Assembly (NCBI GenBank): GCA_022574775.1
Contig: JACZRI010000005.1
Coordinates: 1 to 52,471 of the forward strand
DNA from: Patescibacteria group bacterium
GTDB taxonomy: Bacteria; Patescibacteriota; Minisyncoccia; Minisyncoccales; RBG-13-36-15
Reading direction: 5' to 3'
Length of the DNA: 52,471 nucleotides
In this document: piece by piece, positions 32,709 to 36,614 of the stretch
Position numbering within the stretch: the first letter of the stretch is position 1
Layout of the letters: each line of letters begins with the position of its first letter
Position numbers and translations under genes: made by a program
Notes under the pieces: model-generated
What the model saw: the letters and a program-made list of their open reading frames with translations, nothing else
The model's database searches: none
What the model was told of the DNA's origin: nothing

Positions 32709-34694
32709 TTATAACTTGCTCTTTTTTATTTTTTCAATAGCATCAGATAGCATCTGGCAATATAAATTCAACCCCACAGCATTCATACTTCCAGACTGTT
32801 CCTTTCCTAAAATATTTCCTGCGCCTCTCATTTCCAAATCTTTTAATGCAATTTTGTAGCCAGACCCTAACTCTGTTGCTTTTTTTAAGGTTTGTAATCT
32901 TTCTTTCGCCAAGTCAGACATATGTTCACTGTGAAAGAAGTAAGCAAATCCCTGTAGATGAGACCTGCCAATTCTCCCTCTTATTTGATAAGCTTGCGCT
33001 AAGCCCAGTTTGGTTGCTTCGGCTACAATGAGAGTATTTACATTCGGTAAATCCAAGCCGTTTTCAATGATGGTGGTAGCAACTAAGATATCAGTTTTTC
33101 TATTTTGAAAATCAGTCATTACTTTTACTAATTTTTTTTCTTTTAACCTGCCATGGGCAATATCAATTATTGTCTTGGGAAACAAATTTTCCAAGAAATT
33201 TTTTACTTTTTCAATTGTTTTTACTTGATTATGCAAATAATATACTTGTCCTCCTCTTGAAATTTCTTTTTCTACAGCATTTTGAATAGTTTTCCTTGAC
33301 CAGGGCAAGACAAAAGTTTTTATTGGCAATCTTCCTACCGGAGGTGTTTGAATCAAACTGATTGTTTTAATGGAAGAAATAGATAGATATAATGTTCGTG
33401 GGATAGGGGTTGCGGAAAGAGACAAGATATCCAGTTGAGTTCTTATTTTTTTTAATTTTTCTTTTTGTTTTACCCCAAATCTTTGCTCATCATCAATAAT
33501 TAACAACCCTAACCCTTCAGCTTTTTCAAATAGGTGCGGGGCAACATCTTTAGATAAAATTCGATGAGTGCCAATTAAGATATCAGTTTTTCCTGATTTT
33601 AAATCTTCAATGATTTTTTTTTGCTCTAATTTTGTTTGAAACCTTGATAATAACTGAATTTTTATTGGGAATTTTTCTAATCTTGTTTTGAAACTTTGGA
33701 AATGCTGATTTGCTAAAATGGTTGTCGGGCAAATAATAGCTGCTTGCCTGCCGGACTTTACTGCTTTTACTGCCGCTCTTAAGGCAACCTCTGTTTTTCC
33801 AAATCCGACATCGCCGCATACCAGTCTATCCATAGGAAATTCTTTTTCCAAATCTCTTTTTATATCTTCAATAGTTTTAGCTTGATCTGGTGTTTCCAGA
33901 TATTGAAACGAGCTCGCCAATTGAAAATCAATTTCATCGTCTGGCAGATATGGAGGACGTTTTTCGATTTCTCTTTTGGCATAAATATTTAAAAGTTCTC
34001 CGGCAAATTTTATAGCATCTTCTTTTATTTTCTTTTTCGTCTTTTGCCAGGCAAGGCTTCCCAAACGTGAGACTCTTGGAGTTACAAAACCAACATAGCG
34101 GGACAGTTTTCTTTCCAAGCCTACCGGAACATATAGTTTATCTCCCTGGGCATACTCCAACTGATAGTATTGTTTACCGTTAATTATTAATTGTTGATTG
34201 TGAATTCCTATGCCGTGATCTAAATGAACTATATAATCTCCCGGTTTTAGCCCTTTCAAATCTGAAAATAACTTTTGAGATTTTAATTTCTTTTTTAAAA
34301 TTTTTTTTATTGATACTTCGTTCTCAATTTGAATTGATAGTTTTTCAATATGTTCAATTTTATTTCCAAAGAATTCAAAACGAATGGCATGATTAGAATT
34401 TATAGGGAAAACATCAATAATTCCTCCTCTCTGGGAAAACTCTCCTGGTTCTGAAACTTGGAAAACCTTTTCGTAGCCCATTTCATCTAATTTTCTCAAA
34501 AACTGAGAAAAATGATACGATTGATTTTTTTCTACAAATATAGTATTGTCTTGAAAAAAAGTTTGCGTTTTCCTAGCTTCTAAAATTTTCTCTAAATTTT
34601 TTTCAAACCAAAAATTTTCCCTTTCCAAGAAGTAAGGGGTTATACCGGCAATAAAGGCTCTCCTGATAGTATCTGTACTTGACAATTCAATCAC
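32709..34694 (-). CDS. mfd: Short transcription-repair coupling factor (Mfd-like; RID plus translocase domains)
   Basis: PGEFSQRGGIIDVFP; GDYIVHLDHGIG; CGDVGFGKTEVALRAAVKA; DDEQRFGVKQKEKL; QIRGRIGRSHLQGFAY; 661 aa only, GTG start. Confidence 0.9.
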   Translation of the reverse strand: MIELSSTDTIRRAFIAGITPYFLERENFWFEKNLEKILEARKTQTFFQDNTIFVEKNQSYHFSQFLRKLDEMGYEKVFQVSEPGEFSQRGGIIDVFPINSNHAIRFEFFGNKIEHIEKLSIQIENEVSIKKILKKKLKSQKLFSDLKGLKPGDYIVHLDHGIGIHNQQLIINGKQYYQLEYAQGDKLYVPVGLERKLSRYVGFVTPRVSRLGSLAWQKTKKKIKEDAIKFAGELLNIYAKREIEKRPPYLPDDEIDFQLASSFQYLETPDQAKTIEDIKRDLEKEFPMDRLVCGDVGFGKTEVALRAAVKAVKSGRQAAIICPTTILANQHFQSFKTRLEKFPIKIQLLSRFQTKLEQKKIIEDLKSGKTDILIGTHRILSKDVAPHLFEKAEGLGLLIIDDEQRFGVKQKEKLKKIRTQLDILSLSATPIPRTLYLSISSIKTISLIQTPPVGRLPIKTFVLPWSRKTIQNAVEKEISRGGQVYYLHNQVKTIEKVKNFLENLFPKTIIDIAHGRLKEKKLVKVMTDFQNRKTDILVATTIIENGLDLPNVNTLIVAEATKLGLAQAYQIRGRIGRSHLQGFAYFFHSEHMSDLAKERLQTLKKATELGSGYKIALKDLEMRGAGNILGKEQSGSMNAVGLNLYCQMLSDAIEKIKKSKL

Positions 34695-34707
34695 TATAAA
34701 TTATAAT
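34679..34707 (+). promoter_or_regulatory. Consensus sigma70-type promoter
   Basis: TTGACA (34679-34684), 17-nt spacer, TATAAT (34702-34707). Confidence 0.75.
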
Positions 34708-34743
34708 ATAATATTTAAGAGAAGGAGTCAAAAAAGAGATATT

Positions 34744-34892
34744 CTCCGGCCTGTCTGGGAGAAGCTTCCCGCCACAGTTTCTTTGAAATTGCGGATGTGG
34801 TAAAATAGGCAATCCCTCCTTCGCCTAAAGCACTTACTTAGGATTCGCTGGAAAATTTCAGTTTGATCCTAGGACTCTCAGACAGACCGGAG
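34744..34892 (+). ncRNA. Large structured RNA/leader with tRNA-Leu-like internal segment, unassigned family
   Basis: 18-nt arms 34744-34761 and 34875-34892 pair with 16 WC pairs, one G:T and one mismatch; internal hairpins CCACA/TGTGG, TAGGC/GCCTA, CTTAGGAT/ATCCTAGG. Confidence 0.6.
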
Positions 34893-34927
34893 GGTTAGCT
34901 CTTTATATTCTCAATAGGAGGTGGATA

Positions 34928-35514
34928 GTGAAGCAGAGTTCGTTGATTGTCATTCTGATTTCTATAATCGTTCTAGTAGTTTTAGCATTTCGTGATTTTG
35001 GCAACGAGCAGTCAATAGAGAACAGATATTTTTCTGCTAATTCAGTTCAAGAACAAGAACAGGTTATTAAGCCGCAACCGACTTTGATAGGTACGAGGTG
35101 TCCTACGGCCTCCATGTCGGACTTTGGCCTGGCACTGTTCAACGCTATCAACAATGAGCGGATACAGGCAGGGATATCAGTTTTAGGTGCTTACGGATGC
35201 GCGGTCTATGTTGCCCAACTCCGCTCCGACGACCTGGCCAGTCTCAACTATTTCGCCCACACCAGCCCGAACGGCGACACCGCGTTCTTGCTGCTGGACG
35301 CCAATCGCGTACCGCACGGCTGGGCAGGAGAGAACCTGGCCCGCAATAACTACCATGACGATCAGACGGTGGCAGTCGCTATCAGTGATTTGATGGTGAG
35401 CGAGGGTCACCGAGCGAATATCCTGAAAGCAGCTTTACTCACTTGGACGTCGCAGTGGCTATCGACGGGACAGGTATGAAATACTACACCATGATTTTCA
35501 TTGGTCCGCCCTAG
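34928..35514 (+). pseudogene. CAP/SCP-domain (YkwD-like) membrane-anchored protein with apparent frameshift
   Basis: N-terminal TM; AINNERIQAG, YFAHTSPNGDTAF, GWAGENLA, SEGHRANILKAA; frame 0 ends at 35479, but the -1 frame from 35434 continues FTHLDVAVAIDGTGMKYYTMIFIGPP* to 35514. Confidence 0.75.
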
Positions 35515-35544
35515 CTCATTGAAAAGGAAGAAAAAGGAGGAGAG

Positions 35545-35922
35545 ATGCAGATCTTTGAGCTGAAAAGAAGCTTGGCAAATATTTTGGAAATACCAGAAGA
35601 TCCAGTAAGGTGGGTAGGGATATCATTATTGAATCAAGAAAAGTTCCTTGGACAAAGGTCTTCCCCTAAAATGCTGGCAATGTTAGTAAGGGCTTTTTCT
35701 TTAGAATTTGTATGGGAAGAATTTGAGGAAGTATTGAAAAAAGCGGGCAAAGATTTAAATACTGAGCTTTCGCATGAGGAAATAGAAATATTAGTTGATT
35801 TAACTAAGCAGTTCTTTGATGAAGTAGAAATAGCCAGGTATGGACGAATGTCGAGTGTAGAAATTAGGAAAGATAAAGATGTGTTCCTCGAGGCGGTTTC
35901 GGTTGTTAAAAGTTCTTTATAA
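35545..35922 (+). CDS. Hypothetical protein
   Basis: ORF with SD (aggaggagag) and downstream terminator; no family recognised. Confidence 0.6.
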   Translation: MQIFELKRSLANILEIPEDPVRWVGISLLNQEKFLGQRSSPKMLAMLVRAFSLEFVWEEFEEVLKKAGKDLNTELSHEEIEILVDLTKQFFDEVEIARYGRMSSVEIRKDKDVFLEAVSVVKSSL

Positions 35923-35954: not shown

Positions 35955-36614
35955 TCACTGATTATATTTTTGCCGAGCTTTTTCTATTCCTTCTTTAATT
36001 ATCATTTCAATTACGAGAAAACTTTTTTTAATAATTTCTTTTATTTTTCCCTCCTCTTTTTTGTTAAATTTTTCGAGAACAAATTTATCTACACCTTTTG
36101 GTTTAAAATCTTGAGGGCAAATTCCAATTCTTACTCTGATAAAATTTTTCGTTCCCAATTCCTTGATTATTGATTCAACTCCTTTGTGACCGGCTGATCC
36201 TCTGTCAATTGAGATTCGAACCGTTCCCAAGGGTAAATCGATGTCGTCGTGTACTACAATTAAGCTTGTATTTTGCCGCCTTTGGCGTCGCCCCTGGCGA
36301 ATCTCGCCAACGGCGGGAGTCTCGCCTCTGGCGGGTATCTTGCCGCCCTTGGCGAGCCTCGCCTCTGGCGGGTATCTTGTAGTCAGGGATTTTACTGCTT
36401 TGCCAGAATTATTCATAAAGGTTTCTGGGAGGGCAAGGATTATTTGTTTTTTATCAAGCACTCCTTTTGAAATAAGGGCATTGAGCCTTTTTTCGATTCT
36501 GAAATCTAAAAAGCGAGATGCCAGTTGCCAACTGTTTATTACCAGCCTGCCAATGTTATGACGAGTATTTTGAAATTTTTTTCCTGGGTTACCTAAGCCT
36601 ACGATTAAAAACAT
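35955..36614 (-). CDS. pth: Peptidyl-tRNA hydrolase (with palindrome-encoded insertion)
   Basis: LIVGLGNPGKKFQNTRHNIG; LPETFMNNSGKAV; VVHDDIDLPLG; SAGHKGVESI. Confidence 0.94.
   Translation of the reverse strand: MFLIVGLGNPGKKFQNTRHNIGRLVINSWQLASRFLDFRIEKRLNALISKGVLDKKQIILALPETFMNNSGKAVKSLTTRYPPEARLAKGGKIPARGETPAVGEIRQGRRQRRQNTSLIVVHDDIDLPLGTVRISIDRGSAGHKGVESIIKELGTKNFIRVRIGICPQDFKPKGVDKFVLEKFNKKEEGKIKEIIKKSFLVIEMIIKEGIEKARQKYNQ
36284..36318. repeat. 35-nt palindromic family copy inside pth
   Basis: GGCGTCGCCCCTGGCGAATCTCGCCAACGGCGGGA; 30/35 matches to the copy downstream of hisS. Confidence 0.85.
36321..36379. repeat. Direct 22-nt repeats inside pth insertion
   Basis: CTCGCCTCTGGCGGGTATCTTG at 36321-36342 and 36358-36379, identical. 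Confidence 0.9.

Follow-up and report, generated by a model that had tools for sequence, protein, structure and literature searches.

A conserved structured RNA with an anti-Shine-Dalgarno loop between mfd and pth in Patescibacteria

The locus between mfd and pth

The window analysed here is a 52,471-nucleotide stretch of a Patescibacteria genome that the GTDB lineage of the source DNA places in the order Minisyncoccales, class Minisyncoccia. At about 34740..34897 on its forward strand lies a structured non-coding RNA, flanked upstream by the divergent gene mfd (32709..34694, reverse strand) and downstream by the convergent gene pth (35955..36614, reverse strand), the latter identified by sequence and neighbourhood. 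The RNA matches our covariance model at 83 bits (E 4e-18), and its stems show covariation. A sigma-70 type promoter, TTGACA-N17-TATAAT, is found at 34679..34707 on the forward strand, with its -35 element overlapping the start of mfd on the opposite strand, and transcription probably begins near 34714. A first-pass annotation had described this promoter as perfect, and it does score 12/12 against TTGACA/TATAAT. The promoter is also conserved in homologues, where 27 of 72 have the full 12/12 and 59 of the 72 reach at least 10, against shuffled upstream regions in which a score of 12 never occurs and a score of 11 occurs in 0.7%.

The RNA is built from a long closing stem, P1 (5' strand 34740..34761, 3' strand 34875..34896), an optional hairpin with a CUUUG loop that only part of the homologues possess (approximately 34768..34801), the hairpin P2 with its conserved loop, UAGGC-AAUCCCUCCUUC-GCCUA (34806..34827), and the hairpin P3 (34837..34873), all on the forward strand. 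The 18-nucleotide ends that had been proposed to pair (34744-34761 and 34875-34892) do so, with one C.A mismatch and one G.U pair. The P2 loop, AUCCCUCCU at 34812..34820, had been overlooked. It contains CCUCCU, the anti-Shine-Dalgarno (aSD) core of 16S rRNA.

Two genes on the forward strand separate the RNA from pth. The first (34928..35479) is CAP-like, just below the Pfam cut-off, and is preceded by the Shine-Dalgarno (SD) sequence AGGAGG at 34916..34921. The second (35545..35922) encodes a 125-aa protein with no assigned function and follows the SD AAGGAGG at 35534..35540. As had been noted before, nothing resembling a terminator lies between the RNA and the coding sequence at 34928. A homologue of the 125-aa gene is the first gene behind the RNA in two related genera. 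The CAP-like gene has a GC content of 0.51 in a genome of 0.37, and was therefore probably inserted. It separates the RNA from the 125-aa gene, the RNA's direct follower in the related genera, in the manner of an insertion. The C-terminal end of its product deviates from the CAP pattern, and the gene may be frameshifted.

Conservation, relatives and genomic position

The first-pass annotation proposed a strongly promoted, structured RNA of unrecognised family, and suggested a search against Rfam and a test for covariation in homologues. Both have come out in its favour. At the gathering thresholds of Rfam 15 the RNA locus has no match, the sole match in the window being a tRNA. Neither the locus nor its homologues match the model of the bacterial small SRP RNA (RF00169), and the 6S RNA, tmRNA and RNase P models have no match at the locus, in keeping with the earlier impression that the RNA belongs to none of these families. 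The RNA between mfd and pth is new and previously unlisted.

A single-sequence fold of the window RNA has a z-score of -3.5, with 1 of 200 shuffles folding as well. In an alignment of 51 sequences, pairing holds in 92.8% of the cells and all 41 of 41 pairs show compensatory changes on both sides; the covariation score is 0.85, against 0.29 for shuffled alignments and at most 0.19 for slid partners. Fitting this alignment to the model biases it towards the structure, but the controls and independent single-sequence folds agree with it. Nearly the sole conserved primary sequence among 74 homologues is the P2 loop, whose nine positions each have 69 to 74 identical residues, while adjacent positions vary. 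Because the loop is near-invariant and every one of the 41 stem pairs changes, the RNA likely presents the loop for base pairing. In 28 of the 74 homologues the flanks of P2 resemble a loop-E pairing (GAA/AGUA) by a loose pattern, which we regard as a lead only.

Relatives of the RNA occur in many families across the phylum Patescibacteria. A DNA search found them in two other genera of the window's own family and in one other family of its order, and a weak match in that search proved to be a further relative within the own family. A covariance model built from five sequences (R1) had matches in 28 of the 196 genomes searched in the order, of which 25 were accepted; the weak matches L059, L060 and L062 are without the loop and were discarded. 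With models rebuilt from 24 and then 51 sequences, the RNA is found in 33/241 genomes in the order, 25/286 in the class and 25/380 in the phylum, and with laxer filters 14 of 39 genomes gave clear matches. All of these counts are lower bounds, since scoring reached just part of the candidates in each genome and at least one diverged copy escaped the model; this copy, in Parcubacteria bacterium GBS-2 (L122), was spotted by eye between pth and mfd. The RNA is truly absent from a Staskawiczbacteria genome (L123) and from L124, in both of which pth directly adjoins mfd. The named relatives are all Patescibacteria, Parcubacteria or Paceibacterota assemblies, and twenty loci from other bacteria and archaea had no match to the covariance model. 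Antisense matches to the model are an effect of the near-palindromic P1. With this RNA, a bacterial radiation that is among the largest and the least understood gains a conserved gene at a fixed chromosomal position.

Some copies depart from the common form. In L122, a short diverged form, the loop reads CUCACCUCC, as in 16S rRNA, and a run of T's directly follows P1, which makes P1 itself look like a terminator. L146 is a short diverged form with the loop UUUCCCUCCUUU and T's after P1. L062 (genome G165), next to mfd, appears to be a collapsed copy that has kept the promoter and both P1 strands and lost P2 and P3. We also considered a phage-borne element and rejected it: 18 matches to a hairpin pattern in IMG/VR were short, non-significant against the model (E >= 0.12) and without the surrounding RNA, and a second hairpin pattern had no matches in IMG/VR.

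The position of the RNA is conserved. When the window's genes are compared with the 74 loci by tblastn, pth is downstream and convergent at 72, mfd, dprA or topA lies upstream and divergent at most of them, and every one of the 74 has at least one of these flanks. What follows the RNA directly varies. By simple criteria, an intrinsic terminator follows in 22 of the 74 loci, an SD-led ORF in 28 and neither in 24. The SD-led genes are typically 5-50 nt distant, and the downstream genes are unrelated to one another, ranging from the CAP-like gene of the window to GGDEF, CDP-alcohol phosphatidyltransferase, zinc ribbon and small protein genes, and in genome G002 a terminator and no gene lies between the RNA and pth. 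Covariation, phylum-wide synteny, conserved promoters and the terminators directly behind many homologues together show that the RNA is an independent non-coding RNA gene. In three genomes from different families (L056, L057 and L066), the gene directly after the RNA encodes a GGDEF domain, which Pfam confirmed in two of them and which was recognised by eye in the third.

Shine-Dalgarno use and the ribosomal anti-Shine-Dalgarno

In the window's order, the loop of the RNA has outlasted the ribosomal sequence that it resembles. The sole 16S rRNA gene detected in the window's own genome (C5:16030-17535) ends in ...GTCGATGGAACATTACTTTTTTT and not in ...GGATCACCTCCTTT, and CCTCCT is missing from all 27 of the 16S tails sampled in the order (13 from genomes with the RNA and 14 from genomes in which none was detected), two of which, G059 and G110, retain a partial ACCTC. 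The RNA loop is unchanged in the order despite this loss. Outside the order, all ten sampled genomes with the RNA have a canonical 16S tail, and among seven further genomes of the class without detected RNA the main 16S carries the aSD only in G249; a second 16S with an aSD in G349 lies on a 4-kb contig and may be foreign. This contrast (10/10 against 1/7, Fisher 6e-4) is drawn between related genomes, and its RNA-negative side denotes non-detection and may hide undetected copies. As the RNA occurs both with and without a 16S aSD, we reject a strict coupling of the two. The loop and its neighbouring SDs persisted after the ribosomal aSD was lost, which shows the loop to have a role for which no 16S aSD is required in that cell. 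The phylum offers a natural experiment on the purpose of SD/aSD pairing, with lineages that have the ribosomal aSD and the RNA, the RNA only, and apparently neither. The 16S aSD is also lost in several other genomes of the class, and many tails keep GGATCA without CCTCC (L158-L197, L292-L297).

SD use in the order is close to background, and SDs are enriched behind the RNA. In the window, just 4 of 46 genes have a motif even weakly like an SD, compared with 14% of random stretches; both of the clear, properly placed full SDs belong to the genes behind the RNA. Among the genes on stretches of up to 20 kb sampled in 20 other RNA-bearing genomes of the order, 9.0% carry an SD-like motif, and a control position gives 6.8%. 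Across the order, an SD precedes 17 of the 22 ORFs that come first behind the RNA, whereas of 324 other genes 29 have one (Fisher 1e-12). This count leaves out loci with a terminator or without an ORF, and its odds are approximate, as the genes used for comparison are longer ORFs whose starts were chosen differently. In two families, SDs are retained behind the RNA in vertically inherited genes of low GC.

SD-led starts also persist elsewhere. The window's own genome has 47 occurrences of AAGGAGG-N4-9-ATG against 13 in reversed controls, and of the 41 such sites in 521 kb of it, 24 resemble true starts. Summed over 13 genomes of the order with the RNA, the pattern occurs 365 times against 126 in the control, and over five without detected RNA 75 times against 41, a contrast that gives a Fisher p of 0.04 and Mann-Whitney values of 0.015 on the excess and 0.07 on the ratio. 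The SD-led genes of the own genome have a higher GC content (0.43 against 0.37, p = 5e-6), some of which may therefore have been acquired recently and carry relic SDs. Several of the likely starts in the own-genome stretches L268-L291 belong to metabolic-looking genes unusual for the group, which by eye are PurF-, PyrF-, ThyX- and IspH-like.

Possible functions and known counterparts

We favour, at a probability of roughly one half, a reading from sequence and context in which the RNA is an independently promoted, housekeeping-type riboregulator that pairs with SDs in trans and, where it is co-transcribed with a gene, in cis. The scaffold of P1, P3 and sometimes the extra hairpin would present the loop, which could pair with AAGGAGG ribosome-binding sites, and we infer that such pairing takes place in the cell. 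RNA copies ending at their own terminator would act in trans, and those that precede an SD-led gene could in addition bind its SD in cis. Where relatives have a normal 16S, the RNA would be expected to compete with the ribosomal aSD, while in the window's order it would probably control whether the SD-led genes that remain are translated, especially the one co-transcribed with it. By analogy with aSD-loop sRNAs, repression would be the default expectation, with activation as the alternative. In favour of SD pairing are the near-invariant loop on stems that all change, the SD enrichment of first genes behind the RNA in an order without the 16S aSD, the larger excess of SD-type starts in genomes of the order with the RNA, and, outside the order, the 16S aSD in all ten genomes with the RNA against one of seven without detected RNA. 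For the window's order we set aside titration of a generally used SD system, since neither a full 16S aSD nor general SD use is found there. Several observations count against SD pairing. The downstream SDs are nearer to the canonical AAGGAGGTGA than to the full complement AAGGAGGGAT, and most of them leave the conserved extra (third) C of the loop unmatched. Two genomes with the RNA and an intact 16S aSD, G372 and G587, have no excess of SD-type starts. The higher GC content of the SD-led genes in the own genome, and the undetected copies that RNA-negative genomes may hold, also weigh on this side.

A leader or riboswitch-like element that acts in cis only, controlling the following gene by pairing with its SD, would fit the window, where no terminator intervenes before the coding sequence, and the 28 loci with an SD-led gene directly behind the RNA, which also bear out the earlier suggestion that the RNA may be a cis-acting leader as well. 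Such an element should always precede one kind of gene, and the RNA does not: unrelated genes, terminators behind 22 copies and the gene-free locus of G002 largely refute a cis leader as its sole role and leave this reading improbable. We can give very little credence to the idea that one of the known housekeeping RNAs, namely SRP, 6S, tmRNA or RNase P, has here diverged strongly. SRP RNA (RF00169) is undetected in 30 of 30 genomes of the order, the own genome included, and is detected in control genomes; it is absent from these 30 or strongly diverged there, so a gap exists. However, no Rfam family was matched at E <= 10 in the stretch 34600-35000 of the window or at E <= 1 in 20 homologous loci, and the stems of the RNA lack any invariant position, unlike SRP helix 8 or the 6S bubble.

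The likeness of the loop to the ribosome raises two further readings. It is conceivable, if unlikely, that the RNA is a decoy or cofactor for a protein that meets the 3' end of 16S rRNA (e.g. bS1, bS21, Era or the nuclease that processes the 16S end), with the loop mimicking the tail. The loop and its flank, AUCCCUCCUU, closely resemble the 16S tail AUCACCUCCUU, and a diverged copy carries UCACCUCC in its loop. Yet the 16S tail of the order mostly reads GGAUCA without CCUCC, while the RNA has CCUCC without GAUCA, so the two have come apart, and a protein decoy would also leave the SDs behind the RNA unexplained. Rather unlikely as well is a split aSD, in which a separate abundant RNA would join the 30S subunit, lend it an aSD and activate SD-led mRNAs on ribosomes lacking CCUCC. 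This would account for the unchanged loop in an order that has lost its 16S aSD throughout, and for SD-led starts that persist, most clearly behind the RNA. However, an RNA with the same loop coexists with an intact 16S aSD, so aSD replacement cannot be its original role, and no ribosome-binding element has been identified in it. If true, an aSD supplied in trans, or in cis within the RNA's own operon, would mean that SD recognition is carried by a non-ribosomal RNA.

Returning to the SD-pairing riboregulator that we prefer, the closest counterparts are the alpha-r14/NfeR1 or 'cuckoo' sRNAs of alphaproteobacteria, which combine hypervariable stems with unpaired aSDs in their loops and are predicted to pair with the translation initiation regions of many mRNAs (PMC7143759). 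The Patescibacteria RNA shares the unpaired aSD loop and the variable stems, and of the known systems would work most like these sRNAs. It is nevertheless not a member of the alpha-r14/NfeR1 group, by architecture and by locus: cuckoo sRNAs consist of three separate hairpins with an aSD in each, often in many copies, whereas the RNA described here has one aSD hairpin within the long end-to-end stem P1, occurs mostly in one copy at a fixed locus in another phylum, and is also found beside ribosomes without an aSD. A further comparison is offered by AbcR RNAs, which are Hfq binders. AbcR and MmgR sRNAs likewise carry an aSD motif in an unpaired region (PMC7143759) and differ from our RNA in architecture, phylum and locus.

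Neither aSD loss nor an RNA of this kind turned up for Patescibacteria in a literature search that covered few subscription journals. Flavobacteria, haemotropic Mycoplasma and Carsonella have been described as bacteria without a 16S aSD, and in them this is accompanied by loss of SDs (PMC3522020, PMC6107228). The window's order resembles these bacteria in that most of its genes lack SDs, and differs from them in that a separate RNA retains the aSD and SDs persist behind it.
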